Of a DNA stretch of 64,000 nt, positions 3,351 to 54,064 are shown piece after piece. The notes beneath the pieces were generated by a model. It saw nothing but the letters and a program-made list of their open reading frames with translations, was not told the DNA's origin and made no database searches. Every line of letters begins with the position of its first letter. Positions within the stretch are counted from its first letter, which is position 1. The position numbers and the translations under genes are program-made. Origin of the DNA: Isoetes taiwanensis. Taxonomy: Eukaryota > Streptophyta > Lycopodiopsida > Isoetales > Isoetaceae. The stretch is from the NCBI GenBank assembly GCA_021234155.1, contig JAJEKV010000051.1, forward strand, positions 3,655,370 to 3,719,369. Direction: 5' to 3'.

Positions 3351-6329
3351 CTCCCCCCACCAAAGCGACACTCGAGTGAAGAAAAGGAGGAAGGCGTTTG
3401 AGGGCGGGAAGCCATCAGTCCGAAAGTGATCCTCCCGGGAGTGAGGGCCAGGCTCCATTATGGTACTGGCTGATGAGATCTTGGCGTGATTGAAGAGCTT
3501 GAGGTGTGTCTTGGCCAAGGGCGGGATCAGCATCAATAAAAAACGAGGCGTACCATGTCTTCAAGTCGGCGTGGCATGCGTCGAAGAAATGTCTTACGAC
3601 ACTCCATGAGGAGAGAGGAGTCGAAGGCCAAAAGCAGCGGCGGCATTTGGATTGCGATGAAAAAATGGGGACATTTGCCGATTTAAAGGAGCTGAGCAAA
3701 ATGCATTTGAGGGCAGCGCAAAATCTGCTTGAAGATGGACGAAGGATCGAGGTGAGGTGGGGCGTTACGCAAGAAGGTGTTGAGACCATGAAGCGCATCC
3801 AGCGGTTTGTTGCCAACCACGCTCATTAGCAATGTAAATCCAATTTGTGGTGTTGTCGAGTAGCACCTTCTTCCCAATGTGATCGGCGAACAAAGCGTGG
3901 ATCCCATAGGAGATCCGTCGAGATCACGAGGTGGTGTCCGGCTGCATGACCATCCATGACCTTGGTCCAAAAAGGAAGGCGCCAATCGAAAGTCGAGGAA
4001 CACCGGGCGTGGAGGTACACCCAGGGAAGCATAGGGAGAAGGAACCATGCCCGTGGGCGTGGGTTCTTGGCGATCTCCACGAATTGATCGACAAGATGCG
4101 GATCCGGTGCGACACCGGCGATCCCAAAGAGAAGCGAGAGGCTGAGAGTTGGCAGGAGGGCTATCCCATCACCGTGGGGACCGTCTTGCTATCCAACGAG
4201 CACAGAAGCGATGATTGTAACCAGCGAGAGGTCTTTGCATATAGACTTGTGCATAAGGAAGATCTTCGGGATGTCAGAGATACTTCGATTTGTTGCAGCG
4301 CTTCGCTTGCCGAGAGATAAATGATTTGCAAGCTCGGGCATGTACTCGATGAAAAGTTTGGGTACGGCGGGATCCCAAGATAGGGATTGTTATCTGAAGC
4401 ACCCATTGCGCAGCGGTGGGGTCACCACAGAGCAGTTGGCGTGGCCCATTGCCAAAATTTTTCTGTGTATCACCCGGATAGAAATCATGAAAAATATAAG
4501 CCATGGGCTGAACCGCGGAAAAAGTGAGAAAGTCGGGATGAACACGGTGTATGAGAGATCAAAGACAACAAGGGCACAACACAACCCTTTGTCTTCAATG
4601 GGAGTTACGGCCAAATCGAGAAAAATCAGCCACTGCCGATGGGATATCCACGGGGCCATCAGCTGCGTGCCACTTTGAAAGGAAGAGGTGGCGTCGAGCA
4701 ACCACATAATCATGATAGCAGGAGGGAGCTGGGAAGTCCAGCGGCATTGCGTGAAGAATTGAAGTCCAGGCGTCAAGTTTGGTTTGAGCCTCATCCCATG
4801 GTGAATAACTTCTTTGCGAAGCGTTGTTGAGATCACGGATCCTATTGTCCTTTTCAAGTAGGGCGTGGACTGGTCACGGACCCGCTTACGAGAAGGATTG
4901 ACACGGGAAGAAGATTTCCCGGTGTATTGAGGCGAAACCGCGGCAATCTCCAGCGTCATCGAGTATTTTACGTTTACGCACCTCGTAAAAGGCGATCTTG
5001 AAAGAGGTGATCGAGAGGTACGTGTAGAAAGGCTGAGCCGTCAAGGAGGCAACTTGAGCATCTCGGGCTGAAAGATTTTGAACTTGAGTCGAAAGTTTTC
5101 ACACGGTTAAAGTACAAGGCATTGAGTTTAGCAATATCTTCATCCTTGGTACTTTCGGAGAGCGACTTTGGACTTGTTGTGCTCCAAGAGAGTCTGAATT
5201 TGGTTGGAGCTGAACTGCTGATCTACTTGAGTTGGCTGACTTGAGCTTGTGTATTCTTGAGATCCGCATGAGCCTGTAAGAGAGCTTCATGCTTGTCTTG
5301 AAGTTTGGCCTCAAGGTTGCAACTTGGGGGGATTGCGGCTTGAAGGTCTTGGTGTCTTGCCCTCGAGGCCTCTAGTGCCCGTTGAACCCGCTCATAAGAG
5401 CGTCTTGGGATTCTCAGAACTTAAGTGCGGCGGCTTGAGCATCCTGGCGATCTTGATACAACAACCCAGCGAGGGTGTTGTGGTGGTGGAATTGGCTGTT
5501 GCCTGGTGTGGGAGGTTTGTGAAAAATGGTGTGAAGTGGATGGTGTAGCGGAGGAAGAGACGGTGACATGAGTGTGGTGTGGTCATGACCGGGGAAGATG
5601 GGCGTGATGTGCCAACTTGGTGATTATTTGGAAGGGGGGCCGAGTGGAAGTATGAGAATTTGGTGGTGTGGGAGGGAAGTAATGGCGGATGAGGGCTTGA
5701 AAGTGCCCTCCCACGAAACTTCGAAATGGAAGTGGTACCCGGCGGTCCATTTCTTGGAGAAAACGATAGAACATCATTTGGGGCCAATCTATGTGGTGCT
5801 TGGGTGTGTAGCGATGGGACCAGGTTATAGAAAGGCTTATTGATATGGGTGTTCTTGATAGAATACCCCGAGGAATTTGGCGCCACAAAAAATTTTACAA
5901 AAGGTCTCATGAGGCTTGTCGATATTGGTCGAGACGATGGACATTGGCGTGATAAGCGGGTGCACCAAACTCTGTGACATCAATATCACGTATAGCAGAC
6001 CATGATACACAAGGAGTGTGCAAGGGAATATGAAATACCTCAGAAATCAAATGTTGAGTAAATGAAATAGTGGTGCCATCGACCACCGTGGTGTACCCTT
6101 GCGGGCTGTTAACAATATTGGCGATGAAGCTGGCGAATCGGGCGGGATTTGGAGCCGGAAGTTCCATTTGAGAAAATTCAAAAGCCGGTGTCGTTCGGCG
6201 ACATCTTTATTAGGGACCAACAAGGGCTTCGCGGGAAAGTGGGCGTCAAGAAGGATCTGAGATGCACAAAAGGGCGGATCCTTGGGAGCGGTGAGCTTGA
6301 AGTGTAGAAAATCGTGGGGCAGCGACCAT
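3351..6329 (-). pseudogene. Accessory ORF of element B (frameshifted)
   Basis: Start codon at 6329, opening MVAAPRFSTLQA. It runs the full length to the polypurine tract at the 3' LTR, colinear with element C 18452-21462. Recognisable blocks are the N-terminal domain (WRQIPRGILSRTPISI in a shifted frame, and HIDWPQMMFYRFLQEMDR near 5790), a coiled coil (about 4990-5330) and the C-terminal domain with PMLPWVYLHARCSS and GPRSWMVMQ blocks near 4000. The many single-base indels could be decay or consensus error. The function is unknown, and it is the least readable of the three copies. Confidence 0.7.
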
Positions 6330-11414: not shown

Positions 11415-13236
11415 CTAGACCAACCCAATTTTTGACTGGGCCGGGAGGATTAAGTGCGAAAAATTTCCTCTTGGGCTTGTTGATCCAGTGAGGTTGATTT
11501 CTTTGGAGCTGGTTGATAAGCGTGATTGCCGAGGCTCTTGGGGGCTTCTTGAGAGCTGGTGTGGGCCTTGTTTGCCATTAGCAAGCCCGAGTTGGTAAGC
11601 CGTGAGGCCGGACCGATGTGGTCTGATTTGTGCCCGGAAGGCGGACTGAACTTGTGGAAGTTGAGGGCACGCCGTGGTGGTATGACCCCATTCTTGGCGG
11701 TGATAGCACCGAGCTTTAGAAGGATCAAAAAGGGGGCGTTGGTTGGATCCCCGTGGTTGGTCACATTGGCGATAGAGTTCGTGGGCTGCTTTTTGAAGAG
11801 GTGGTGGCGATAGTGCGTTTGGGACTGAGGTGTGGTTTGTACTTGATAAACCATTTTGTTGCGTAAAGCGGTGTGGGATGAGTGCGAGTGCACTCTTAGG
11901 TGGCATGATTGCACATGTTGCATCGCTTGCAATGAGGCGGGCCATTGGTGGAGTTGCACTCATTGGCCAAATGGCCTTGATATTTGCAAATATGGCACCA
12001 GATGTGACTGCGCTGTGGATTAGCGTGTTGAGGCTGAACAGCCGTTTGTGGAACCATGACAGGTGGAATGAACGGGAGCTCTTGAAGAGCCACGCCTCGG
12101 GAGGAAACATTGACGGAGTGATTGACAAGGTCGATAGCCTGGTCCAAAGTTTTTGGACGCAGATATTCAGTCATGAGTCGAATAGCAGGAGGAAGTCCTT
12201 GGAGAAACCAGACCAAAATCTGGCTCTGTGTAGGGTACTCCTTGAGCTTACTGAGCAGAATGTGAAGTCGATCCGCAAAATCCCGGGCAGACTCCGTGGG
12301 CTCTTGTTGCAGTTCATTGAGTTGCTTTAGATGAAGTTGATCATCATCCGTGGTCCCGTAATGAGACAGAAAAGCAGTGCGCATTTCGGACCAGTCTTGT
12401 TTCCAATGGCTTTTGTTGGACATGAGCCATTGATGAGGAGAGCCACGCAGTGTGGTGGAAAAGATGTGAAATTTCAGTTGAGGTTGCGCGTGCCCATTTA
12501 GGACAGCTAGAGCCTCAAATTCTTCCATGTGGGCCTGAGCACTTTGGTCTAACGGTTTGCCTTTCGTGTTGCCAAAGGTGGGATAAGTCAGTTTCAGAGT
12601 CTGAAAGGTAGATGGGAAAGTGCTGGGCTGGACTGGAACAGGATAGTGAGAATATTGAGGTTGAGGTGGATTTGGCATTGTGCCTGACGGACCCTGATGA
12701 AGGGGTGACTGCGGTTGAGAAACTGAAGTAGCCGGAGCATTGGTTTTGAGATCTGTAAGGTTGTAAACAGGAAGAGCAGTGGGAAACGTAGGGAAAGGAT
12801 ATATGCCGGGCGGTATAAAGGAGACATGTGGATAGCCGGTACCCTGGGGGGAGAGGATGGTTCGCGAAGGAAGTGGCGATGGCACGAAGAATGATGGATG
12901 TAGGCATGTTGGGGTATGAAAGTATGGTTGAGAAGGTTGAGCCGGATAAGGCTCCCCGATAATGATGAGGGACTGAGGTTGTGAGCAATGTTTGCACGCT
13001 TTGGGGCGGGGGAACTGGGGACGAGGACTGGACACGAGGGGTGGGTGGCGCGGGTGAGCCCTAGACCGAAGATGGCCGCCCTCTATGTCATAAGCGAGAT
13101 CCATACATGTGTGAAACGGTTTCCCCGCCTGATGGCGCTCAAAGCGAGATGCCGTCACGAGAAAGGAGTTCTTCCGGGCGTGAAATTGCGGGACGGACAT
13201 GGCGACGAAAGAAAGTAGGAAAAAATCAGACCGCAT
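11415..13236 (-). pseudogene. gag of element B, with zinc knuckles
   Basis: A 446-codon frame runs from 13236 to 11896 and continues in another frame to 11415. It has a proline-rich N-terminal half, then the retrotransposon gag domain (SHWKQDWSEMRTAFLSHYG, ESARDFADRLHILLSKLKEY, QILVWFLQGLPPAIRLM). A CCHC knuckle follows (CHICKYQGHLANEC, about 12010), then a second Cys-rich block (CKRCNMCNHAT). In the shifted frame a third knuckle (CYHRQEWGHTTTAC) has Arg where the second Cys is expected. Gag forms the virus-like particle that packages the RNA. Confidence 0.9.
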
Positions 13237-13245
13237 CGGCGCCGG
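13231..13245 (-). promoter_or_regulatory. Primer binding site, element B
   Basis: Immediately inside the 5' LTR end (13246), the minus strand reads CCGGCGCCGATGCGG. This resembles the TGGCGCCG...TGC(C)GG primer site complementary to the 3' end of tRNA-Asp used by many Tat/Athila-type elements. The first bases are degenerate. Confidence 0.6.
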
Positions 13246-13822
13246 TGTTTTGGGTGCAGGTTCGGGGAACTCACGGAAGACTGACCCTCTGTGAGGACCC
13301 GTGGATCTGGGGAGAGTCCGAGGGGGACTATGTCAGCGGATTTCTTTGAAAGAGAAAAAAAGAAGAGAAAGAACAAATGAAAGAAAGGTGATAAGCTTCC
13401 TTGATATCAATGATGAAAATACATGAGCTCTCGCAATAGAGAGAAAAGCGAAAGGAGACAAGACTCAAAACTCATCTAAAAACTTATGAGCTAACTCTAC
13501 TCATATATATAGTACAATGGCCTTGGGCCCAATATAGACACTCGACCGATCTGGGTGCCGACTCACGGAAGGAGGCCCTGATTGTGAGGAATGTTGGCGG
13601 TGCCTCTTGAAGTGCCTAGAATCACGCCACGCCGGCGCTGGCGTGACGGGCAAATCACTTATGCGGCGGCGCCTCTTGGCGAGGAGCCAAAGGCTTTGAT
13701 TGCGTGGCTGCTTAGTCTTACGTGGATGCTTGGATGTCGACCCGTGGTTGGCCCGAGGATCTTTGAGCTTGACACAGTGCGGCGTATGCATGAATAGTCT
13801 GTGCGGGAGGCACGGGACTAAC
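13246..13822 (-). repeat. 5' LTR of element B
   Basis: Plus-strand TGTTTTGGG at 13246 to GACTAAC at 13822; a terminal A seems lost beside the GATCT target duplication. It is paired with 2781-3350. A TATATATA box lies at about 13502-13511. The first 45 bp of the LTR end, holding a TTCGGG(G)AACTC block, are also present outside the 3' LTR and in LTRs A and C, which fixes the true boundary beyond the CCTCACA motif. Confidence 0.9.
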
Positions 13823-15828: not shown

Positions 15829-17528
15829 ACAAACCCGCCGGATATGTGAGAAAACTCAATCTGGCTGGCGCAACTTCTACGCCGCGGGCGAGAGGCCTTG
15901 GGTTTAATTTTCTGTGTCCAACGCTTCCGTCACTATCTCTTAGGCAGTCAGATCAAGTTCTTTGTTGACCACCAAGCACTCCTTTACTTGATCAACAAAT
16001 CCACGCCCACGGGCCGAATTGCTCGTTGGGTCCTTCTTCTGCAAGAATTCTCGTCTTTTGAAATTGTTCATAAGGCAGGAAAATCTCATGTAAATGGGAT
16101 TATCTTTCACGCATTCACGGATGATCCCTCCCGCGGGAGTTTCGGATGCATTCCCGGACGCTCAACTCTTTACGGTCACGACCCCGCCCCATTGGTTTCA
16201 TAACTTTTCAGCAATATCTTCTTCGGTGCTCTTCCTCCCGCCCGTCGGCGCTCTCCGGACAAGCTTCGTTCCGTCAACGTCGGTTTTCAGAGAGGTCCGT
16301 GACTATACCATGGTTGCAGGCCATTTGTACAAACGCGGCAAAGACATGGTCCTCCGTCGTTGTGTCCTCCCTCACGAGGTGCCCGATATTGTTCGACAAG
16401 CCCACGATGGGCTTGGTGGTGGTCATTTTAGTGGTGACGCCCACGCCACGCAAAATTCTTACGCCGCGATACCCGGCCCACACTCTTCAAAGATGCCCAC
16501 GCTTATGCTCGCGCGCGTGTGGACGCCCTGGCGGTGTGTGGGAAAGCCCACGCCTGCGCGTGACGCCTTAGCGCCCTTGACGCCGGTCGCCACGCCACAT
16601 CCCTTCAGCAAATGGGGTATGGATTTTGTAGGGCCCATAGACCCACCCGTGGCGCACCGTGCCGCTATATTCGGTCATCGCGGATTATGCTACCAAATGG
16701 GAAGGAAGCTTGTGCACTTCCGGACAACACCGCTGCCAAAGACGACCAAAGGTTCTCTACACGCACATCATCACGCGTTTTGGTTGTCCCACGGAACTTG
16801 TTAGTGATCGTGGCGTGCACTTTGTCAATCATACTATCAAGGAGCTGACGGATTATCTTTACATCCAGCACCGGAAGAGTACACCTTACTATCCTCAAGG
16901 CAATGGCTTGGCTGAAAGTACCAACAAAACACTCATCACCGTTCTCAAGAAAATTTGGGACGTTTCGCGAACAGATTGGCAGGACAAGTTGCCTACTGTT
17001 CTTTGGGCTTACAACACCAGTTTCAAAATAGCTACTGGCCACACTCCTTTCAAACTGGTTTATGGTCAGGAAGCTCTCATGCCCTTTGAATACATTCTTC
17101 CAACTCTCCGTTTTCAACTCGCTACAGCCCATAATCCTCCTGCTGCACTCAAGGAACGGGTTTATCAATTGGAACAGTTGGATGAACTTAGGCGCGATGC
17201 TTACTTTCGTGTTCTTCATGGACAACAATTGCAAAAATCTTTGCATGACAAACGTCTTAAGACAAAAACATTCAAAGAAGGTGATTTGGTTCTTCTTTAT
17301 GATTCACGTTACAAAACTTTTCCGGGCAAGTTAAAGTTTAGATGGCTTGGTCCTTATCAAATTGTTCAAGTGGTGCAACCCAGTGTTTTCAAGCTGGCCG
17401 AACTAGATGGCACTCCATTACCTACACTGGTTAATGGCTTTCGCCGCCTCAAACAATTTCATGCAACAAATACAGACAGTCATACACCAGATGCAGCACA
17501 AGAAATTGAATCCCCAGATAGTGACTAA
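15829..17528 (+). pseudogene. RNase H and integrase of element C
   Basis: RNase H end blocks occur at 15945-16100 (LLGSQIKFFVDHQALLYLI, FEIVHKAGKSHVNG). Next is the integrase zinc-binding part (VLPHEVPDIVRQAHDGLGGG, about 16370), the catalytic core with a DFVGPIDPP-type block (about 16620), VSDRGVHFVNHTIKEL (about 16803) and NGLAESTNKTL (about 16905). The C-terminal FPGKLKFRWLGPYQIVQVV region follows, ending with stop TAA at 17526. The last 289 codons (16659-17528) are open. Earlier parts carry frameshifts near 16090, 16480 and 16600. There is no chromodomain. Confidence 0.85.
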
Positions 17529-27555: not shown

Positions 27556-27832
27556 CTTATTACTGCCACGGTTTTTCCCTCGAAAACCCTTTGGGGCGGG
27601 GGTTTTTTAACCCGGATAGTAATAAGTTTGCTGCGCTCCTTATGGGTCCCATAGGCCGATTGATCTCAGTGGACGATAAAAAACTATTCTTATTCTTATT
27701 CTTATTCTTATTCTTATTCTTATTCTTATTCTTATTCTTATTCTTATTCTTATTCTTATTCTTATTCTTATTCTTATTCTTATTCTTATTCTTATTCTTA
27801 TTCTTATTCTTATTCTTATTTTTATTCTTACC
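27556..27832 (+). mobile_element. LINE 3' tail with hairpin and (TTCTTA)n microsatellite
   Basis: This is the conserved compound hairpin (27559-27625) and GATCTCAGTGGACG, then about 25 copies of CTTATT (27679-27828). Together with 27074-27469 it makes a 5'-truncated LINE copy. The repeat is long enough to be read as an open frame on both strands, which is an artefact. Confidence 0.8.
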
Positions 27833-35522: not shown

Positions 35523-37001
35523 TGTGACATTCCAGTACGATATACGGTCTCAAGGCGATACCGCATCAAGGAAATCACGCGCATACCGCCGCCGTCCGGT
35601 CGGCGTGTAATGCGACGGCGGTACCCAAGCAAGGACGCCTTAGGGGGCAACTTGCAATGGTGCGCACACTTAGCAATACGCGCACCTTTAGACCTTTAAC
35701 CCATTAAAGGTAGACCAAGGGTCATGGAAACCCTAAACCTAACTGATAGCCTACATAAGGCACCAAACCCTAACATTCCCTTTTTCGCCCACAGACCTTC
35801 CGAGCTCCGATTCGCGCGCCTGAGGAGTCAATTCCAACTCCCACGATCTGGCCTGCGCCCCAGCTTGTCAGATCATCCTTCCGACCGCATCCCAAAGCAG
35901 ATCAGAGACATGGATGCCTTCGGATCGAGAGAAGTGAACCAGGGATCAGGTATTTGGTCGATTGAATAGCCTAAACCTTATTCCAGCCTTCGAACCAGTA
36001 GGTTTAGCCTATTAAATCGCCCTTAGTAGCCAAGCAGATCCTGAGATTGACTCTAACTAAAGAACCTAACTCTATGTATTAGATTAGTTCTTATTACTTA
36101 TGTTCATATGATGGGCGGATGTATTCTGTGGACTCATTGTATTGGGAAGGGGGGGTAGAGACTTAAAGCTTAGTAGATGATGCTCCTAGCTAGTCCCTCT
36201 TAGTGCATTACTAGTTTTCGCCCACAGGTATGAGGAGCCCACCCGGTTGTGGGTGAAGGGGCCGGGCGGCTTAGAATGAGGTTTGTGTTGACCCTTGACC
36301 GGTTCCCTCGGTGTGTAAGGCCCTACCGGGGATCGTGAGTGACTAGGTCTAATGGCTTGCCACCGAGTGTGGGTAAGGCATGGGCTCGACACCGTGGGGT
36401 GGTGTTCACCTTCCGGTGGGTTAAGTCGAATAAGGGGCGGTGGCCCTCTAGTCACCTTGGGTCAGCATGTAGATCTCTGGAGGGAGCGATCCCTACCTGC
36501 CCCATCGGGATTGGGGGAGATGTAACCCGAGGAATAGCCCCTTTGGCTATGCACCCCGCTGGCTACTCTGATCGAGTCCCAACACTTTTCAACCTACTCT
36601 GCAAAGTGTGCACAGGAGGGGCGGATGGAGTGGACAATCCTAAGCCATGTTCTTATGCCAGCCCAATCCATTGTCATGATTCTGTCTGCACTGAACTCTG
36701 GTGGAGTCTGAGCCCTGGGTAGGAACTTCCTTTGTATTGTGCTGATCTTGTCTATGCAGATATTGAGGTGCCACCCTTCGAGGTGGATATATGATGATAT
36801 GTTACTGACGTGTATGTTTACGCTTCCGCAGCTAGGTAGGCCCTGAGGGAGACGGGGTAAAATGACCCCTTCACTCTTCTCACTGTGGACTTTAGACGGT
36901 CACAGTGATATGTGGAGGGCCCTGTATCAGTATGGAGCTGGTGCGGGGGATGCTCCTGTTGTATACGGTGCGGGCATCGTATACGAGTAGGGGACGTCAC
37001 A
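35523..37001 (+). repeat. 5' LTR of chromovirus D
   Basis: TGTGACATTCC (35523) to GACGTCACA (37001), 1,479 bp, paired with 43813-49625. It differs from its partner mainly in GC-rich patches. Confidence 0.92.
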
Positions 37002-37002
37002 A

Positions 37003-37018
37003 TGGTATCAGAGCCATG
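37003..37018 (+). promoter_or_regulatory. Primer binding site, initiator tRNA-Met
   Basis: TGGTATCAGAGCCATG one base after the LTR end. It is the canonical complement of the plant initiator tRNA-Met 3' end used by many chromoviruses. Confidence 0.95.
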
Positions 37019-37216
37019 TTCTTGGAGACCAAGAGCAAAGCACTGACTATGCTCCCAGTAGTACTAACTTGATAGGATCCTCAAATCTCGAAAAAGTGGG
37101 GAAAATTTTTTCTCATTTTTGTAGTTTATGCTAAGCTAGTAACAGTTAAATGAATTGGAACATAATAAGACTAAAAGGAATGAGCCAAAAAAAAAAAAAC
37201 CTCCTGAGGCAAGGTG

Positions 37217-37283
37217 GTCTCACACATCGCGCCTGGTCAAAGAACTGAACTTTAGTTTTTGAGCAGGGCGCTACGTGTGAGAC
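37217..37283 (+). repeat. Leader hairpin 1
   Basis: GTCTCACAC at 37217 pairs with GTGTGAGAC ending 37283, continuing through GCGCC/GGCGC and an inner A-rich/T-rich stem. About 30 bp of stem in a 67-nt unit. Confidence 0.75.
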
Positions 37284-37408
37284 ATCGAGCCAAGAACATA
37301 TTAAACTTGATGAATTTGAGAAAAGTAATATGGTAAGGCCAGTTCCAAGGTAAGAATTAGTTAGAATAGTATGTTTAAATCACTTAAACTACTTAAAAAT
37401 GTGTAAGA

Positions 37409-37473
37409 TCTCACACGTAGCGCCTGGTCTAAAAACTAAACTCTAGTTTTTGAACAGGGCGCTACCTGTGAGA
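37409..37473 (+). repeat. Leader hairpin 2, diverged copy of hairpin 1
   Basis: TCTCACACGTAGCGCCTGGT pairs with AGGGCGCTACCTGTGAGA, and AAAAACTA with TAGTTTTT inside. The sequence is about 85% like 37217-37283, with compensating changes on both arms in places. Confidence 0.75.
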
Positions 37474-37578
37474 CCAATAATTAGAAAAAAGTCTGAAATA
37501 AGTGTAGGTTTTAAGTAAATAGGTGCCTTGGCATGTTAAATAGAGCAACTTGAATTTTGACCTAAAAATTGCCCAAGC

Positions 37579-37586
37579 TATAAATA
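37579..37586 (+). promoter_or_regulatory. Internal TATA box upstream of the D upstream ORF
   Basis: CTATAAATAG, a textbook plant TATA box, lies 109 bp upstream of ATG 37688 and 577 bp inside the element, well outside the LTR. It would place transcription start near 37612. No upstream regulatory motif is evident, so this is a candidate only. Confidence 0.5.
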
Positions 37587-37687
37587 GAAGTAGACCCCCC
37601 TCATTTGTACGTTCTCGCCCTAGAAATCTGCTCCAGCTCCCTAAGGCGATCTTTGGCGCCCGATATCCGATTGTTGAACCGTCAAAC

Positions 37688-38417
37688 ATGGCATGGACCA
37701 AGCAGACTGCCAGGAAAGCCCGTCCAGGCGAAACCCCCAGCGCCAGCGACACCAATCTCATTCAGCAGATGCTTCGGGAGAGGCTCGTCGCGAGGGGAGG
37801 TCGACTATCTTCGAGCGAGGAGAGCATCGCAGAAGAGCAGAACGAGGAGATAGGCCAGCAGACCGACCGGGAAGAAGATGTGCACTCAGAAGCAGGAACG
37901 GAGATAGTTGAGGAGGAAGATGAGGGAGCACAGCGAGAGCAAAGGACCAAGGCTCGCGAAGAAAAGAGACTGCCGACACAGAGCTGGAGGCCGAGGAGGC
38001 GAGGACCCGTCACACAACGACAGGTCGTTGCGGTATTACCTTCCCCTGCTGATGGATGGAAGAATAGCGGTAATTCACCGCAAATTCACCCCCAGGGGCG
38101 AGGAAGGAGTATCGATGCTAATTGCGCTCTCAGGCTTTGGCCGGCATGCTCGGCTAGCTCCCAACACCGAGTATGCCATCCTGGTGAAGAGAGCGGTAGC
38201 ACTTGATATTTTTGACTTCGCCATACCTTACAGACGGCAGGGAAGACTGGCAGTGACCGCAGCCTACACCTCCGAGCACAGGGTAGAAGATTTGGCGAGA
38301 GCTTTGCAGGGGGGATCTTCAGTCAACGTCCTTAGGAACTTGGGTCATTCAGTGGGAACAGCCCAAGTGAGGAAGTTCCTAGAGGATAATCCATCCTACC
38401 GGCGTTATCAAGAATAG
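37688..38417 (+). CDS. Upstream ORF of chromovirus D with histone H3-like N-terminus
   Basis: First in-frame ATG at 37688 in good context (AACATGG). The protein opens MAWTKQTARKARPGE; residues 2-10 match the H3 tail (ARTKQTARK) at eight of nine positions. The one difference is Trp (TGG) where H3 has Arg. A Ser/Glu-rich acidic stretch follows to about residue 95 (SSSEESIAEEQNEEIGQQ). Then, after one or two frame changes at 37970-38030, comes a globular-looking segment: YYLPLLMDGRIAVIHRKFTP, NTEYAILVKRAVALDIFDF, EHRVEDLARALQGG. It stops at TAG 38415-38417 (RRYQE). It is not gag: gag domain and knuckle lie downstream after an AT-rich gap. Role unknown; chromatin targeting is inference. Confidence 0.6.
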
Positions 38418-38587
38418 TTAGGAATCTTGATCCCGGAAGTCTTTTTGTATTAATATATTATATAATATGAATATAACTCCTTTTGCACTTTAAATGTTTT
38501 GTTGATGTATTTTTGTTCCGCAACTATACCAACAACACATATAATGCAAGAGAACAAATAAAACTAACCGTACAGCCATGACCAATT
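38418..38587 (+). other. AT-rich spacer between the upstream ORF and gag
   Basis: 170 bp, strongly AT-rich, with AATAAA at 38557-38562 and an acceptor-like TATGCAG at 38597 just inside the gag frame. It could be a 3' end for the upstream transcript, or an intron joining the upstream ORF to gag. Confidence 0.5.
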
Positions 38588-39800
38588 GTGTATGCAGATA
38601 GGAAACAACGAACGGTCGAGCAAAACAGGAGGCCCAACAGAGATGAAGAGACTCCTAACAGGCAACCCCTTCAAAGGAACCTCTTCGAAGGATATGGTCC
38701 CATGACCCCAGAAGAGGAAATGTCGCAGATGCGAACAGAGCTGGACCAGATAAAGGCCCTACTAGCAGCCGAAGCATCATCCGAGCCACAAACGACACCC
38801 CGAAAGTCGGGGAAAGACAAGAGAAGGAGTAAGAGAAGGAGGTCCCCTAGTACAGAGACCTCCGACTCAAGCTCGACCTCAGATTCTGAGTCCGAGAAAG
38901 AGGCCGAGCAGGCGCCGGACCGTAGAGACGGCAGACAGAAGGACACTAAGGCCCTGGAGTACCAGACTCAGCACTGGGCAATGTATGGAAAGCCCGGAAA
39001 CTCGAATAGTTCTCGGGCGAGAACAGATCTGGCTTAGAGGCAGAGGCATGGCTCGACGAAATGAGCGAGTATGGCAATGCCTACGGCATGAAGGATAAGG
39101 ACAAAGGCAGGGTGGCAACAGCCAACCTGAAAGGAGCCGCACGCATATGGTGGAAGGGCTATGCCAAGGCACATGGTTTGAGCAGAGATGCATGCCGATT
39201 TAAGAAGTTCTCAAAAGCTTTCAAACACCACTATGTTCCTCGAGAACACAAGTCAAATATGATGCAGCAGTTCTACAGATTGCAACAAGGTTACAAGACA
39301 GTGCAGAAGTACACCGAAGAATTCATGAGGCTAAGACTGTATGTGCCTAAGCTGAGCGAGAAACACACAGTGGAAAGTTACATAGAAGGACTGAACGAGG
39401 AAATCCGGAAGCTCGTGAGGGCAATAGACCCTAAAACAGTATCTGAAACAGAATCCAAGGCAATTAGTTTGCAAGGATCCGGGCCCCAGAACAGCACACA
39501 GAGGCAGCCTTACTATCAGGATAGAGGCAAAGCAACAGGGAGCTACAGCCCTAGGGCAGCCAGCCCAAGTCCAGCAAAGTCCCCATACAATAGCAACCAG
39601 GGGAAACAGCAGGAAAGAAAGCAGGTGTCCTTCAAGGACAAACAGGAAGGTTCCAACTACTCGAAAGCAGTACGGTCCTTCTTACAGGCGATGCCCAAGG
39701 AGAAAAGGCAAGAATGCATAGAGAAGCAGCTCTGCTTTAGATGTTTCCAGCCCGGCCACCGAACGGCGAACTGCCCATTTGTTATGAGCTCAGCGCTAGC
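38588..39800 (+). pseudogene. gag of chromovirus D
   Basis: Frame 38588-39037 (Ser/Asp/Glu/Lys-rich; PMTPEEEMSQMRTELDQIKA) passes by a shift near 39015 into the frame beginning [16 protein letters not shown]. The gag domain follows: [74 protein letters not shown] knuckle [14 protein letters not shown] lies at about 39731-39772. Gag is fused in frame to pol. Apart from the shift near 39015 it is intact. Confidence 0.9.
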
Positions 39801-41450
39801 AGAGTTGGGCGGATGGGACACTCCGTCAGATGAGGACGGCGAGGCAGCACGCGATTACATTCAGGGTGAGTGCCACATCTTCGCTGCTATAGATACAGAA
39901 CAGGCAGAGACCCAGTATAAGGTAATCTCCACAGAAGGGAAGGCAAAGGCCAAATCTTTCATAGTCTTGATAGACTCCGGAAGTAGCCATAACTTCGCAT
40001 CCCCGAGGATGGTTGAAATGTTGAAATTGAAACCCCTAAAATCCAAACCAAGACCCGTAATCTTGGCAAGCAGAGCAGTAAGACATACGGCTGGGAAAAG
40101 GATCAACTTCGACATCGACTTGCCAGGGATTAATATCCAGATGGGGGCAGAAGTAATGGGCATTGGCAAGTATGACTTGATCATTGGAATGGAGTACCTT
40201 GGACCAGCAGGGGCCATCATTGATTGTGGAAAGCGGAAGGTGACCTTCCCAACGCCCGACGGCAAAGCCATTGAGATCACATGTAAAGAAGTTACTCCCA
40301 TCATGCAGTGTATGTCTGTTAAGAAGCTGCTCAAGTCTATAGAGAGCGAGCAGGTAGCATACATCTTCAAACTCGAGGTTGAGGAACCCGAGTCGGAGGG
40401 AAGCAAAGAAGACAAAGTGCTCAGCAAGTTGCCTAAGCAAATCGCCAACTTGATCATGGAGTTCCACGATATCTTTCCAGATGAGATCGAGAAGCTTCCT
40501 CCTTACAGGGGAGTAGAGTGTGAGATAGCACTCGAACCAGGGACCAAGCCGACGAGCAAGGCCCCATATAGAATGACCACACATGAACTCACGGAGCTAA
40601 AGAAGCAGTTACAAGAATTGCTCGATCTAGGCTTCATCAGGCCTAGCGTCTCACCATTTGGGGCACCCATCCTCTTTGTCAAGAAGAAGGATGGAAGCTT
40701 GAGGATGTGCATAGATTACAGACAATTGAACAAGCACACCATCAAGAACAAGTATGCACTCCCCAGATCAGACGACTTGATGGATCAGCTCCAAGGGGCA
40801 AAGGTCTTCTCCAAGATTGACCTAAGGTCAGGTTATCACCAGATCAGAATAAAGGAAGAGGACATCCACAAAACGGCTTTCAGAACCAGGTATGGGCATT
40901 ACGAATTCACCGTAATGCCATTTGGGCTATCCAACGCCCCAGCTACGTTCATGAGACTCATGAACGACATCTTCAGAGAATACTTGGATACCTTTGTGAT
41001 AGTATTCTTCGACGATATTCTGGTGTACAGCAAATCCATTGAAGAGCATGTACAACACGTAAGAAAGGTGTTCGAGAAGTTAAGAAGGCATCAGTTGTAC
41101 GCCAAGTTGTCGAAGTGCCACTTCGCAACAGAGAAGGTGGAATACCTCGGTCATGTGATTTCAGCAGAAGGAATCTCGACAGACCCCGTCAAGATAGAAG
41201 CAGTAATCCAATGGCCGGCACCAAAGAACGTCCATGAGGTCAGAAGTTTCCTTGGCCTAGCAGGGTATTACAGAAAGTTCGTGAAGAACTTCGCAAAGAT
41301 AGTAGCCCCACTGACAGACTTGACAAAGGCAGAGAAAGTGAAAAATTGGGCAGACCATTGGCTTAAGAAAGCCCAGGCAGCATTTGAATTGTTAAAGGAA
41401 GCTTTGACAACCGCCCTCGTCTTAACCCTGCCAGACCCAGGTGCACTGCA
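39801..41450 (+). pseudogene. Protease and reverse transcriptase of chromovirus D
   Basis: Protease: [20 protein letters not shown] (about 39958), with DSGS as active site, and [11 protein letters not shown]. Reverse transcriptase: [98 protein letters not shown] and [20 protein letters not shown]. The catalytic box is FFDD rather than the usual YIDD/FIDD; both Asp are kept. The connection domain ends [20 protein letters not shown]. The domains are complete in one frame, so only the lost RNase H behind them breaks the polyprotein. Confidence 0.93.
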
Positions 41451-41560
41451 ACGCAATCTCGACGCTCTTCAACGATTTCGGGAAAAAGATAGAAGAAACC
41501 TTGCCAGCGGATGTAGACTTCAAGGAAGTATGAGCAAGCTTGTGCAAGGAAGCGAGAACG
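41440..41560 (+). other. RNase H deletion junction
   Basis: After [14 protein letters not shown] the sequence passes directly into the pre-integrase spacer ([20 protein letters not shown] in another frame). The roughly 120-residue RNase H domain with its D-E-D-D residues, expected here in all Ty3 elements, is absent. Confidence 0.8.
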
Positions 41561-42977
41561 GATAAGGAGAGGGAAACCTTCAAAAATTTTAAGAAGGAAG
41601 GTAACCTCCTATACCATAAGAACAAGTTATACGTGCCGGAATCCTCTGGAGTAAGAAAGTTGATCCTCCACGATACCCACAACAGCCCAATAGCTGGCCA
41701 CGCAGGATTCATGAAGACACACTTTAAAGTGCCTAGCAGCTACTATTGGCCGGGAATGAAGAAGCAGATAGCCCGCTACATCAAGGAGTGTCAGCTATGC
41801 CAGCAAACAAAGGCAGAACAACTTCGAATACCAGGGGCATTGGAACCATTAGCGGTGCCAAACGCTAAGTGGGAGGTCGTCAGCATGGACTTTATAACAG
41901 GACTGCCAAGGACAGTAAGAGGTAAGGATGCCTTGATGGTCGTGGTCGACAAGCTGTCGAAAATGGCCCACTTTGTGCCTTGCAGGACCACGGACACAGC
42001 TATGGATACGGTGAAGCTCTTCACCAAAGAGATCTTCAGACTCCATGGCATGCCAAGGGAAATTATCTCCGACCGAGATCTGAAGTTCATGAGTGTGGCA
42101 GGATCTCTTCGCAACAATTGGAACGAAGCTATCCATGAGCACGGCCTATCATCCACAGACGGATGGGCAAACAGAGCGTATCAACAGAATATTGGAAGAC
42201 ATGCTCCGAAACTATGTCTGGAACAAGCAAGGTATGTGGGAGGAATTTATTCACTTGGTGGAGTTTGCGTACAATAGCACCAAGCAGGAATCATCCCAAA
42301 TGTCGCCGTTGACGATCAACTACGGCTACCAATGCCTAACTCTAGACACTTGGCACAATCCAGTGTCAAAAGTGGAAGTTTCGCAGCAAATGTTGAGCGA
42401 TATGCAGCAGCTTGTGGAAGAAGTTCGAGGGTACCTTCAAGCAGCAAGGAGTCGGCAGAAGAGCATTGCCGACAAACATCGGACAGTCAGAGAATTCCAA
42501 GTCGGAGATGATGTATGGCTCAAGATCAAGGTAAAGCAGGCGAAGCTCTGCATCGGAAATTGCAAGAAGCTTGCTCCAAGGTGGGCTGGACCCTTCAGAA
42601 TAACCAAGAGAGTGGGTAACCAATCCTACAAGTTAGACTTGCCAGCGCACCTAAAAATCCACAAAGTCTTCCACGTGAGTTTGCTGAAGAAGCACACTCC
42701 TAATCCAGATGAAGTCCTGGACACTCCAACGATGTTGGAAATGACAGAAGAGCAGATAGAAATAGTTCCAGAACTAATTCTTGATAAAGCATTCAAGAAA
42801 ACAAGGAGATCGGAGTTTCTCCAATACTTGGTCAAGTGGAAACACTTGCCGGTGGAAGACGCGACATGGGTACTTAAAAGAGATCTGGAACAACAGTACC
42901 CACAATTTATGGAGCAATGGGACGGCAAGGTCGTCTCCGAAGAAATCGGCTCAGGCATGTCGATTTGTGTAGATTAA
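41540..42977 (+). pseudogene. Integrase and chromodomain of chromovirus D
   Basis: Zinc-binding HHCC part: ILHDTHNSPIAGHAGFMKTH, then IARYIKECQLCQQTK (41670-41815). Core: VVSMDFITGLP (Asp 1, about 41880) and REIISDRDLKFMS (Asp 2, about 42060). After a frame change near 42095, STAYHPQTDGQTERINR carries the Glu. C-terminal LAPRWAGPFRITKRVGNQSY and HKVFHVSLLKKHTPNPDE. Chromodomain at about 42755-42920: ELILDKAFKKTRRSEFLQY, LVKWKHLPVEDATWVLKRDL. The Trp of the aromatic cage is present; the first cage aromatic is not obvious. Chromodomains bind histone marks or partners and steer insertion. Stop at 42977. Confidence 0.93.
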
Positions 42978-43812: not shown

Positions 43813-45178
43813 TGTGACGTTCCAAAGACGATATATACGGCCTCAAGACGATACCGTGATTAGCGCCGGCCACGCCAGTACACGCCGTCTAGTCGACGTG
43901 TACGCCGACGTGTACCCAAGCAAGGACGCTCTAGGGGGCAACTTGCAATGGTGCGCACACTTAGCAATGCGCACACCTTTAGACCTTTAACCCATTAAAG
44001 GTAGACCAAGGGTCATGGAAACCCTAAACCTAACTGATAGCCTACATAAGGCACCAAACCCTAACATTCCCTTTTTCGCCCACAGACCTTCCGCGAAGCT
44101 TCGACTACCGAGGAGTCAAATCCAACTCCCACGATCCGCCTGCGGCCCGGCTTGTCGATCATCCTTCCCGACATCAAGATCCCGGCATCGTAGACATGGA
44201 CGCCAGATCGAGAGGAGGAACCAGTGGATCAGGTATTTGGTCGATTGAATAGCCTAAACCTTATTCCAGCCTTCGAACCCAGTAGGTTTAGCCTATTAAG
44301 TAAGCCCTTAGTAGCCAAGCAGCATCCCGAGATTGACTCTAACTAAAGAACCTAACTCTATGTATTAGATTAGTTCTTATTACTTATGTTCATATGATGG
44401 GCGGATGTATTCTCGTGGACTCATTGTATTGGGAAGGGGGTAGAGACTTAAAGCTTAGTAGATGATGCTCCTAGCTAGTCCCTCTTAGTGCATTACTAGT
44501 TTTCGCCCAGGTAATGTGAGCCCACCGGTTGTGGTCAAGGGGCCGACCGGCTTAGAATGAGGTTCGTGGTGTTCGACCCTTGACCGATTTCCCTCCGGTG
44601 TGTAAGGCTCACCAGGGGGATCGAGTGACTAGGTCTAATGGCTTGCCACCGAGTGTGGGTAAGGCATGTGCTCGACACCCGTGGGGTGGTGTTCACCTTC
44701 CAATTGGGTTAAGTCTAATAAGGGCAAAGTGGCCCTCTAGTCACCTTGGGTCAAGATGTAGATCTCTCGAGGGAGCGATCCCTACCGCCCCATCGGGATG
44801 GGGAGATGTAACCCAGAATAGCCCTTTGGCTATGCACCCGGCTGGCTACAGCCAGTCCCAACACTTTTCAACCTACTCTGCAAAGTGTGCACAGGAGGGG
44901 CGGATGGAGTGGACAACCCTAATCCATGTTCTTATGCCAGCCCAATCCATTGTCATGATTCTGTCTGCACTGAACTCTGGAGACCCAAGCTAGTCAGTCA
45001 TCCCCTGGAGTCTGAGCCGTGGGTAGGAACTTCCTTTGTATTGTGCTGATCTTGTCTATGCAGATATTGAGGTGCCACCCTTCGAGGTGGATATATGATG
45101 ATATGTTACTGACGTGTATGTTTACGCTTCCGCAGCTAGGTAGGCCCTGAGGGAGACGGGGTAAAATGCAGTGATGAC
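43813..45178 (+). repeat. 3' LTR of D, left part
   Basis: TGTGACGTTCC (43813) aligns with the 5' LTR to GGGGTAAAATG, where the hAT element begins. The LTR resumes at 49476. Confidence 0.9.
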
Positions 45179-45788: not shown

Positions 45789-46871
45789 CTATGCTTGCCA
45801 CCCTGCTGCAGATTCAAATACTTCTACGTTGGAAGCTGCTTCTTTCTCTTGTCCCCGTCTACAACACATTGAACTCCAAGCAGCCAATGCTCTCTGATAT
45901 GGAAATTCATCAATACTATACTCACTGGCATATGCTCGAAGACACAAATCTAAGTTTTTGGTGAGCTTATTACGCACCTTATTTTTCAGAACGTTCATGA
46001 TACTGAATGTTCTCTCATCCTCCACGGATCCAAGGATCATGGTTTGACAAAGGTCAGCAAGCTTGAAGTACTCTGACATATGCTCTTTAAGCACTTCACT
46101 ATAGCTAAGTCTTGTCCAAAGACGCATGATTGCACCTATCTCTGTTGGTTTTTCCAGTTTCTCAACTTGGTTCCACATAGTGCTGCCAAAACATGCAGAT
46201 TGTGCTAACAAAGCTTTTTCACTGATAGCGCCCTGAATTATTTCTCCTCCTTCAAGTGTAGAAGTATGCGCAAAATGTTCAATAAGAATGGACAATCTGC
46301 GTTTGAACTCACTTTGAACCTTCTCCACAGGCTTGTTGTGTAACCAAAATTGTGGATATACAATGGACATAGCATCTAACAACTCTTCCCTTGGAAAACG
46401 ATGTCGGATTTCAGCTGATAAAGCCTTTGCAACTTCGGCAAGGTTTCGTCTCACCAATACAATTGTATCATTGAAGGCATTCCTAGTTGTGGGAACTCTA
46501 CCTGGAAGACGACCACGCACTCTGTTCTTTCTAAAATACATCTGCAATATAAGAAAAATCAGCGATCAAATTGAACATAAATCCATAGATTATTATGGTC
46601 ATACCTGCACTAATCGAGAGCGTACCTTCACGCAAACAGTATCTTTTGAATCATAAGCAAGGAAACTTTTTGAATTTGTGCCTTCAATCTCAATAAGCTT
46701 GTACCATAACTGAAAATTTTCCCTGTCATAGGGCACTTCAGGGCTGATTGTATACAAACCATCCAAGGCTTGGCATATATTCTTTCGAGCTGTATTATAC
46801 TCGACAATGTACATTGTTCGTTTTTCTGCCATCTTCACTAGCATATTCATTTGTTTGAGCATTGGCAACAT
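45789..46871 (-). pseudogene. hAT transposase, C-terminal exons
   Basis: Two exon-like frames: 46871-46599 (QMNMLVKMAEKRTMYIVEYN, VPYDRENFQLWYKLIEIEG) and 46547-45789. The second ends with the hAT C-terminal dimerisation region: EYFKLADLCQTMILGSVEDE, RTFSIMNVLKNKVRNKLTKN. The ER.FS pattern is the diagnostic block. The gap between them (46548-46598) would be an intron. The N-terminal BED zinc finger and most of the RNase H-like catalytic core are not readable upstream, so this copy is unlikely to make an active enzyme. Stop codon at 45789. Confidence 0.8.
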
Positions 46872-48240: not shown

Positions 48241-49475
48241 ATTGAATCTTTTGACGGATTAGTATGTAAACCACAAAATTCCACTCTCAACCTGCCATAG
48301 TTGAAGCCATAGCCAGCGAATAGGAAAGGCCACTAAGCGGCGAATAGGAAACACCGGGAGTATTTTTGAGATTCCATGTGATCTACAATTTTGTAATCCC
48401 TTCTATATACTTTACATAAGCAAGATCACCTGCATATACCATTGGTCAATATTTCGGTGGTAGATCCGAACCCATTATTAGGATTGGGCACCACCGGGTA
48501 GTCCAAAGACACAATATGCTTCATAAATCCTCGGGTTTAGTTAACCGTGACTTGCTCAAAGTTTCAAGGAGCTAATTGATTCTCGGGCCGCTTCTAGTTC
48601 ATAATGCTTGAAATTCATAGATTAATGAAAACCGGACATTCTTCTTATGTAAGATGAACAAGATGCGTATACCTTTCGGTTCCGCACTTTGAAGTGAATA
48701 AACTGAATAAGGCCGAAATCGATGCACCCTAGCCTTCACACAAAGTTTTGCGGATCCCCAAGGCAATGGATGAGTCGATCTTCATCAAGAATGCTTCCTT
48801 TATCGTGGTTCTTTCTCTAAAAACTCGATCACCAGAAAGTGTGATATTATAGAGCACCTAATTATGAGTAGATATTGGTTTCATATAAAACCAGATAAAC
48901 TTCAATTAAAAAGCCTTCCGTGCCCTAAGCATCTAAAGTCAATTCTTGATCTATATGATCTAGCAACTATGTAAGTTGCTTAGATTGATTTAGATGGCCA
49001 CAAAACTGGATATGAAAAGTATACACGAGAAAATCGCTTACTTACAGACGAGAAAAGATTGCACCGCCGGATTGATTCAAGAATGGCCGATTCCTTTGTC
49101 GCAGGATTGAGAATCGATGAGCATGAGGTTACGATCATGGCCTTGGTTTTGGGGCTTCAATTCATTGAAGCTCCATATCCGAATGCACATTCTTAAGTTA
49201 GGGCTTATCCATAAGAAAAATAATCTTAGTAATTTAAAACCTATGGCTTACCTAATACTTCCGAGGATTCATACCCATCATTTCTATGGCGATCCTCCTC
49301 TCCCTTTGACTTCGTGAGTTCCTTTAAGGTGGCTGGAGCGGAAAACATGCCATCATTTTTCGCATTTTTTTTTCATGGGCTTACGGTCCTACTAAACCAT
49401 CGCGGCACACATTTTTAATTTTAGTGAAATATCGTGATCTTTATTTAAATTTCGCGGCCTTAAAGGCATCACCGG
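48241..49475. other. Right part of the hAT element, no gene seen
   Basis: Mixed composition without a supportable frame; the last 150 bp are the AT-rich subterminal region and inverted repeat. The 66-codon frame at 49117 has no recognisable motif. Confidence 0.5.
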
Positions 49476-49625
49476 GTAAAATGACCCTTTCACTCTTCCC
49501 ATCGTGGACTCTAGACGGTCACATTGATGATATGTGGAGGGCCCGTGACAAGATGGAGCTGGTGCGGGGATGAACTCCCCGCTTGTATACGATGCAAGGG
49601 CATCGATAACAGTAGGGGACGCCAT
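49476..49625 (+). repeat. 3' LTR of D, right part
   Basis: GTAAAATGACCCTTTCACTC onward aligns with the 5' LTR at 36857-37001, followed by the target duplication GATTT (49626-49630). Confidence 0.9.
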
Positions 49626-51290: not shown

Positions 51291-54064
51291 TTAAGATATT
51301 ATAGAAACTTTTAAGGAATTTGTGATTGAGGTACTTTGAATGCTATTTTGGCCAACATCTTTTGATATTGTAAGCGGTCCTACAATAGTAGTTCTATTAC
51401 CATGTATTATTGTGACTTCATAGGTACCATGATAACCTGTGAAGCTAAATCTACCATCAGTGCTTGTTGAAGCAACTATATTGCTACCTGATTGGATCTT
51501 CCTTATGAATGTGTCGACTGTATTGCCAGTGGGTAGATTCCTGAAGTTATTATCAGTTAAGCACATGCGATAGCATCCACTTGGATGAAGAGCACTCCAT
51601 AAAATAATGCCTTTCACAGCTGGATGTGAAAATGCTTCTCTCAAAATTTGATCCAAATAGATGGCCTACAACAAGTATAAATGTTAGTATGTCTTAAAGA
51701 CCATAAGTATTTCAACTTGAAGATGAATAAATGAACAAGAATATTACACTTACTTGATTTTGAGGATTAATAGAGCTTAAGAGATCCACCTCTGTCAGCC
51801 AGATTGGTAGACCAAGGGTAGCCAATTTATCAAGGACAACCCTCATATAAGCAATGTTAGGTGCTCCAGTGAAGTGTCCTTCTATTCCAATGCCTACCAA
51901 GGCAATACCAGCCCTTTTGATCTCTAAAATTTTCCGAATATATGCATCCGGCGTACTCTTCATATCATTAGGATTTTCAATGATGTTATAGTCATTTAGA
52001 AACAATGTAGAAGATGGATCAATTTGTTGGGCCACACGATAAAACTCCCTACTTACTCCTTCTCCTAAGTGATCCTCAAAAAATGAGAAATGCAGCATCT
52101 CATTCAAGACATCCCACTGTTTAAGTTGTCTTGCATAACGTCTCATTACAGATCTCACTCTTGAAAAACTAGAAACCCTCAAATCATAAGTTCCAAGATT
52201 TTTCACCCAATTGGGTTGATAACTTGGGTCATCCCATAAAACATTATGTCCTCTAACTTCTATATGGTTGTTCGAACAAAATGCCAGCATGTTGTCAGCT
52301 ATGTCATATGTTATTCTATTTCTTTCAGGCTCTGTTGAATACCACTTAAGCTCATTCTCAAATACTGCAACATTGAATCGTTCTAAGAACCATTTCTACA
52401 TGTGTTAACAAAGGATATGTTAGAAACAGGTAATAATGTAATATCAAAATAGGGAAAGAATCAATGAAATACACCTGGTATGGGATATTGTTTAGGATTG
52501 TTGATGCAATAGCAGTTCCAAAAGGAAACCCCATGCTTACTTGATTTACTTCGATAGTAGCATTGGCTAACGGATTACCATTAATATCTGTGATGCGCAT
52601 AACCCTTGTTTGCTTTCTATTCTGCAAGGATAAACATAGTTTAGAAGTGTTCTTCTAGGCAATCAGTGAATAGGTAGAAGATTACTAAATTTATGCGTGT
52701 TTCTTGATGCCATTTCCACTCTGCATCAGTGAAGGGTTGTAGGGACACATTGTCAATCCATACGTCCACATTTGAATCTATAGTCTGCAAAAATATATTA
52801 AAATCATGCAAATATATTATACTGGAAGCTGATCTATCTCTAGATGAAAGACCTCAAAATAAAGTGTTTGTGTTGTTGAAGCTTCATCAATGGTAAAACC
52901 CCCACTAAGAAAGGACCAGCACCCTTTTTGGGCAATGACAGATCCCGCTGTTGTATAGCCTTGATTGTCCAACTTTACCATAGCTCTAATAATAGTTGAA
53001 TTAGGTCCATCAACCTGCATCCAAGCTATAATTGGAGGGTGAGAAATAAACGTCAATTTCCATTAACTTTATATATTCTCTTACCTGAGAGTGTGTACTT
53101 CATCCCGGGTTGCAAATTGCTAAAATATTGTGATGGACCTTGATATGAAGCTGATCTGTGTGTTGCCACTAGAAATGTGTTTGCTTGTTGATTTTGAAGT
53201 TGTAAAGAGCAACCGCCAAAGCACGCCCATCCTTGTAGGCCTTGATCCAAAGAAGGATTGGCGACAACACCACCATCATAGAGCAACTTAGAAGGTTGGG
53301 GCATGCACTGTTGGAGAAATAGCAACAACATTAGGATTCATTAACAAAATTGATTTGAATAAAACATAATAGGAATAGAACATAACCATCTTTATTGAAA
53401 ATAAGAAAATGGACTTTGAAAGAAATATAGTACGAAAATGGGCTCTCAAAGAAATACGGTACCTCTGTGTAGGATGTAGAATCATAATCGCGGAAATTTG
53501 ATCCTGCAAAAGACCATAGCCAAGTTTTGTATCGGCACATACAGAACCATAAATCTATTACTGATTTTAGCAAATAAATGTTGTCGAAATAGCTATATAA
53601 AAGCGCAGTCGGCACAGAAGCCCCTTCGTTTCGTCTTAATCTGCACTATTTAATCTTGTAGCTCATCTGAAAGTAGAGATTCTAATGAACAGAGCTAGGA
53701 AACAGAAAAAATCTGGGTAGTGATTAAATCTACCATAAAATGTAGCTATGGCGGACATTTGCTATTTCTTTTCTAATGCTTATCCTACAGATCTGTCGGG
53801 AAAAGCTCCGCATTGACAGCTCCATATCCATATCCAGCTTGCAATCCAGATCCAAAACGCAACCCAATGCAGATGCAAAAGGACCCATAACAAACAAGCC
53901 AACAATTAACTAACATATTCTGCAGCAAATGTAACCCAGATCCGTCCTCTGACAGCAAATTTCATACAAAATTAATGGAACAGAAGAGCCCACAATTGAT
54001 TTTTACCTGCATTTGCAGCAGAAAGTACTGATACAAAGAGGAATCCAAGAAGCAGAGCTGCCAT
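51291..54064 (-). CDS. GH10 endo-1,4-beta-xylanase, eight exons, secreted
   Basis: Exons: 54064-54007, 53503-53463, 53307-53085, 53025-52853, 52784-52686, 52621-52475, 52395-51754, 51665-51291. All introns are GT-AG, all junctions keep frame, total about 585 residues. Residues 1-19 form a signal peptide (MAALLLGFLFVSVLSAANA). About 35-190 is a carbohydrate-binding module of the CBM22 kind (GWACFGGCSLQLQNQQ, YFSNLQPGMKYTLS, VDVWIDNVSLQPF). The catalytic GH10 barrel runs about 200-500, with QWDVLNEM (acid/base Glu, about residue 346) and PIWLTEVDL (nucleophile Glu, about 448). The plant C-terminal part follows (GIILWSALHPSGCYRMCL). The enzyme cleaves xylan in cell walls. No break seen; first exons match the usual plant layout. 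Confidence 0.95.

Follow-up and report, generated by a model that had tools for sequence, protein, structure and literature searches.

A Tekay-like plant chromovirus in Isoetes taiwanensis most likely carries, upstream of its gag gene, an extra open reading frame whose predicted product begins with a near-copy of the histone H3 tail. The window analysed here is the whole stretch of 64,000 nucleotides, and on its forward strand the peptide MAWTKQTARK is encoded at 37688-37717 by ATGGCATGGACCAAGCAGACTGCCAGGAAA. Directly after the methionine, H3 residues 1 (A) and 3-9 (T-K-Q-T-A-R-K) are matched, which makes 8 of 9 positions, or 9 of 10 with the methionine, and the sole mismatch is a Trp in place of Arg at residue 2. 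The reading that we tentatively favour is that the start of this ORF is a copy of the H3 N-terminus, either acquired in the distant past or moulded by selection, which the family retains for engaging host chromatin proteins. A start that copies H3 offers, for one of the chromovirus 5' extra ORFs, a direct and cheap test of its role through methylation or reading by the host. If the tail is methylated or read by the host silencing machinery, plant retrotransposons would own a histone mimic; should it prove a mere relic of capture, it would still document the transfer of a piece of an H3 gene by a retrotransposon. The features of the element are collected in Table 1.

Table 1. Features of the chromovirus and of its 5' extra ORF (positions within the window).
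Feature	Position	Strand	Basis and remarks
5' LTR, TGTGAC...GTCACA	35523..37001	+	alignment with 3' LTR; end set by primer-binding site
Primer-binding site TGGTATCAGAGCC	37003..37015	+	sequence
Hairpin-forming leader repeat 1	37215..37283	+	direct repeat, 37218-37283 and 37409-37474, 88% alike; fold of 37215-37290 at -36.5 kcal/mol
Possible leader intron	37350..37623	+	donor AAG|GTAAGA, acceptor CCCTAG|AAA, pyrimidine-rich; simple scoring only
Hairpin-forming leader repeat 2	37405..37480	+	fold at -36.7 kcal/mol
TATA-like TATAAATAG	37579..37587	+	109 bases before ATG; sole occurrence on either strand of window
H3-tail-like start MAWTKQTARK	37688..37717	+	sequence, ATG and motif counts
5' extra ORF: H3-like start, acidic middle, C-terminal part	37688..38417	+	ORFs, codon score; frame change 37905-38204; C-terminal coding signal weak
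Gag, protease, reverse transcriptase	38582..41565	+	ORFs, Pfam; frame change in gag at about 38920-39037
Integrase with C-terminal chromodomain	41540..42977	+	two overlapping ORFs in different frames; chromodomain at about 42765-42923, group II
Polypurine tract AGGTGGGGAGAA	43801..43812	+	sequence, directly before 3' LTR
3' LTR, cut short at 3' end	43813..45168	+	alignment with 5' LTR

The H3-tail match had been reported in a first-pass annotation; the sequence confirms it, and two methods put its chance occurrence at about 1e-6 per window. Over both strands of the whole window, a single ATG out of 2630 is followed by 8 of the 9 tail residues, while the next best (36 of the 2630) reach 3 of 9 and none lies at 4 to 7. 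Base composition leads us to expect 1.3e-6 ATGs with at least 8 of 9 in the window, and 6e-5 positions with at least 8 of 9 over all six frames. As an empirical null, the pattern M-A-x-T-K-Q-T-A-R-K, with residue 2 left free, was scanned in contig collections, and gave 11 matches in 257 Gb of bacterial and archaeal contigs and none in the viral contig collection. Seven of the 11, counted by reading downstream, read on as H3 genes; in one of these, L003, the H3 reading stops after five more residues, perhaps at an intron. The other four are not H3 and constitute a usable null (L001 at 6061-6090, L004 at 728-757, L005 at 2475-2504 and L008 at 2140-2169); all four sit within stop-to-stop ORFs of 296-1135 aa that belong to another frame or strand, as judged from the coordinates. 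From this prokaryote-contig count, about 1e-6 matches are expected by chance in 64 kb, the same order as the composition estimate, both figures applying to one 64-kb window and one copy, with an unstated number of motifs and windows screened beforehand. The opposite strand of 37688-37717 translates as FPGSLLGPCH.

It is very unlikely that such a match arose by chance in the window. We accordingly regard as improbable the explanation that the peptide is a pure coincidence, singled out by a search for a well-known motif among very many windows. The prior screening, the single copy in hand and the four chance matches in 257 Gb all lend it some weight, but the expectation per window is tiny, none of the four chance matches starts the long reading frame at its position, and the present match lies near a coding onset. 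A further explanation is convergence, in which selection for a basic N-terminus with nuclear or RNA-binding function happened to yield an H3-like peptide. With the ORF's own composition (tail included), the per-site probability of at least 8 of 9 matches comes to 1.0e-8, about twenty-two-fold above the genomic figure, but the order of the residues is still far too improbable, and convergence seems to us a poor prospect.

The position of the peptide at the N-terminus of an ORF, also claimed at first pass, agrees with the coding signal. We computed codon log-odds in 120-base sliding windows over the leader, with the gag, RT and integrase of the same element as training set. Frame 0, that of 37688, has only negative scores (-0.2 to -31) in windows starting at 37000-37600, ranges from -1.0 to 2.7 in windows starting at 37630-37720, climbs to between 7 and 18 at 37750-37870, and stands at 5 at 37900. 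The onset of coding near 37688 is not sharp: in the windows starting at 37660, 37690 and 37720, frame 1 is slightly above frame 0 (2.1, 2.6 and 4.3 versus 0.5, -1.0 and 2.7), and over the first ~40 codons the codon score does not separate the two frames. Coding most likely begins at 37688, because the frame-0 score rises near that position, and because frame 1 is interrupted by a stop at 37851 and offers no ATG after 37688 until 37878. The context of the ATG, TCAAACATGGCA, with A at -3 and G at +4, is a favourable start context in plants. From about 37930 the best forward frame is frame 1, with scores mostly of 0-3 and 8 at best, which become negative at about 38290; the frame stays open until 38417. 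Stops at 37905 in frame 1 and at 38204 in frame 0 bracket the switch from frame 0 to frame 1. The extra ORF, about 240 codons long, does not keep one frame, and is therefore broken in the present copy.

An unspliced leader would hold eleven further ATGs from 37002 to the extra ORF, none of them within 37590-37687. The TATA-like motif is a possible internal promoter, so termed from its sequence and position, and the extra ORF could be made from a short transcript of its own or, alternatively, after splicing of the leader. The hairpin-forming repeats of the leader are two in number, 66 bases each and in direct orientation. Rfam searches gave no match at gathering scores, and no tRNA was found.

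The element as a whole has the features of a Ty3/gypsy chromovirus: the order gag-PR-RT-INT, a chromodomain at the C-terminus of the integrase, LTRs, a polypurine tract and a primer-binding site that we take to be of the initiator tRNA-Met type. Between the primer-binding site and gag it bears a sense ORF without known domain, broken here, as expected for a chromovirus 5' extra ORF. As in Tekay elements, the chromodomain is of group II and upstream of the polypurine tract (stop at 42977, tract at about 43801), a combination that, according to the available part of PMC3605345, is not exclusive to Tekay and speaks against CRM. The searched pieces of the element gave no Pfam family match for RNase H, and only ~490 bases separate the end of the RT match at about 41160 from the integrase zinc-finger match, which starts at about 41651; RNase H has therefore probably been deleted. 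Since frame changes affect both the extra ORF and gag, no RNase H was found and the 3' LTR is cut short, the present copy is broken and presumably does nothing now.

The two LTRs (35523-36864 versus 43813-45168) show identical blocks of up to 149 bases alternating with clusters of gaps and mismatches, and these clusters could in part be sequencing error. Among their 49 mismatches 26 are transitions, and small gaps are many; the ratio of observed to expected CpG is 0.60-0.76 in the parts of the element and 0.72 in the whole window. C-to-T decay as the dominant pattern in the element is thus unsupported. This bears on the idea, put forward at first pass, that the Trp at residue 2 arose from Arg by CpG decay: the codon allows it, but the LTR pair has no marked excess of transitions. 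At 49471-49624 there survives a 3'-terminal piece of a related LTR, 81% identical to the last part of the 5' LTR (36852-36999).

Because a chromodomain (PF00385, E 5.5e-10) is among the element's products, one might suppose that the tail serves as ligand for the element's own protein, a role that the first-pass annotation had proposed to test. Aligned with CHD1, this domain keeps the middle cage Trp and has Leu in place of the third cage aromatic, and its first cage position, judged by eye, is not aromatic. This is the usual state of group or type II chromodomains, which are described in the available parts of PMC3605345 and PMC6317226 as devoid of the first and usually of the third cage residue; the latter source adds that the cage is present only in non-seed plants and that the partners of type II chromodomains are not identified. 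Taken by itself, that distribution would point to a host among the seed plants. Because two of the three cage positions are missing, canonical K9me reading by this domain appears unlikely, and we consider a tail made for the element's own chromodomain highly improbable.

Past its first ten residues, the extra ORF bears no significant likeness to a histone. Pfam searches up to E 10 returned no family for the N part or for the 169-aa C-terminal ORF, and no histone match for the extra ORF. A 123-aa C-terminal piece has one sub-threshold Pfam match (Imm5_like, E 0.18), which we take as chance. NCBIfam gave one match far under cut-off and PHROGs none for this ORF; in the PDB, searched by sequence, the C part has two chance-level matches (E 0.33 and 0.8) and the N part none. 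A structure model of the C part, with a mean pLDDT of 37.1, is too poor for fold comparison. Protein database searches returned 133 candidates for the N half and 81 for the C half, none of them at E <= 1; this silence says little, because residues 1-300 of the gag-RT ORF of the same element, used as a control, likewise produced 1331 candidates and none at E <= 0.001. In viral contigs, the gag-RT query picked up three stretches and the N-half query four, none of which was confirmed. Neither blastn nor tblastn detected a second copy of the extra ORF in the window.

Local alignment with one H3 protein (L006) locates the end of the resemblance. The N part scores 55, a value reached by 1 of 500 shuffles; deprived of its first ten residues (leaving residues 11-118) it scores 22, as 483 of 500 shuffles do, and the scores of the C part are at shuffle level too (reached by 228 and 387 of 500). 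The predicted protein is thus an H3-like tail on a body with no detectable histone part, the similarity stopping at residue 10. A captured whole histone H3, with neither Pfam nor PDB histone match and with alignment to one H3 past residue 10 at shuffle level, is rejected. The first-pass statement that this is not a captured histone gene holds to that extent, since similarity does end at residue 10, but a short or old captured piece would be compatible with the same data.

Such a piece is the basis of the main competing explanation, which we regard as somewhat unlikely: a short stretch of H3 including the start codon would have been joined to the element by recombination or transduction, providing just a start and a basic N-terminus with no mimic function. 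The match does begin exactly at the methionine and end abruptly at residue 10, as at a junction. A recent capture would show more agreement at the DNA level, however, than we observe with seven H3 genes, which are eukaryotic DNA within prokaryote MAG records and not from the present plant: the 30 tail bases are identical at 20-23 of 30 positions, third codon positions are equal at 1-4 of 8 sites, and 15-23 of the 60 flanking bases are shared. With third positions agreeing at so few sites, descent from H3 is therefore not established, and this DNA-level agreement neither shows nor excludes an old capture. Capture also has an antecedent: the survey of Steinbauerova et al. 2011 (Genetica 139:1543) is reported to have found, for some chromovirus extra ORFs located 5' of gag in elements from grasses, a partial similarity to a histone H3 gene, which it reportedly explained as probable transduction or recombination of cellular sequence. 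If the survey did report this, H3 resemblance of chromovirus extra ORFs is probably known as a kind, and the present ORF adds a member whose resemblance extends over residues 1-10 and stops there. The 2011 survey is cited in the available part of PMC7264820.

Extra ORFs of this position have been described in sunflower. According to the portions available of PMC11728184, Tekay chromoviruses with type II chromodomain carry 5' extra ORFs (5'aORF), retained in 500 of 523 sunflower group-2 elements; the sunflower protein, of 402 aa, is largely disordered and predicted to be nuclear, and the Tekay 5' ORFs of rice, maize and sorghum have no sequence similarity to it. Like the present ORF, those of sunflower group 2 and of RIRE3, RIRE8, Retrosat-2 and maize Tekay are in sense orientation, 5' of gag and free of known Pfam domains, in elements with a group II chromodomain; the likeness lies in position and domain content, and the sunflower ORF is the longer one. 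The word 'histone' has no occurrence in that text as available. Among the literature matches listed, we found no description of an H3-like start on an extra ORF, nor is one mentioned in the available parts of PMC12786077, PMC11963269, PMC8616336 and PMC8407070.

We come back to the histone mimic. The first-pass annotation proposed that the peptide engages chromatin readers or writers, and this is plausible from the sequence. The initiator methionine is cleaved when alanine follows, so that its removal here would leave a free tail, AWTKQTARK, or ARTKQTARK in the ancestor, on an acidic protein. The QTARK core could then be methylated by H3K9 methyltransferases, and be bound by host K9 readers or compete for them; as a result, local silencing might be weakened, or the element's complex tied to chromatin. 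In this reading, that the tail descends from H3 and is conserved in the family, and that the protein is nuclear, binds in this way and has such an effect, are inferences. Short H3-tail-like peptides on unrelated proteins have precedents in the histone mimics of influenza NS1 (its tail) and of G9a (its automethylation site); the present candidate differs from both in being N-terminal and spanning the K4 and K9 positions.

Several observations speak for this mimic. The match follows the start methionine directly, as in H3, and thus stands at the extreme N-terminus, where it would presumably be exposed; the coding signal rises near the same ATG; and a location upstream of gag, together with a group II chromodomain, fits the Tekay 5' extra ORFs described in the available part of PMC11728184. 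Against the mimic stand the Trp at residue 2, an Ala at the position of H3 Ser10, the frame change that breaks the protein, a chromodomain of its own without cage, and the low third-position agreement with H3 genes. Readers that require Arg2 should be hurt by the Trp. A nuclear signal is not supported by RPRRRG, the clearest basic stretch in frame 0, because it lies near 37990, where the codon score no longer favours frame 0. In its strongest form, which we consider unlikely, the proposal would be that a plant chromovirus lineage keeps a full H3 tail, with its K4 and K9 positions, at the N-terminus of an additional nuclear protein, where it acts as both decoy substrate and ligand for the host loop of H3K9 methylation and DNA methylation, and so counters silencing.

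The remainder of the window contains pieces of other elements and of a gene that is probably the host's. The latter, a partial gene for a family 10 glycosyl hydrolase (xylanase; E 4.4e-40), lies on the reverse strand at 51712-52395; on the same strand, 45789-46547 is a 252-aa ORF which by eye resembles the end of a hAT transposase and has no Pfam match. Another Ty3/gypsy-like element is indicated by a gag (PF03732, E 8e-13) at 11899-13332 on the reverse strand, and another again by a weak integrase core match under cut-off (E 5e-4) at 16641-17525 on the forward strand. At about 27685-27828 the hexanucleotide TATTCT (repeat family D1) is repeated in a long array.
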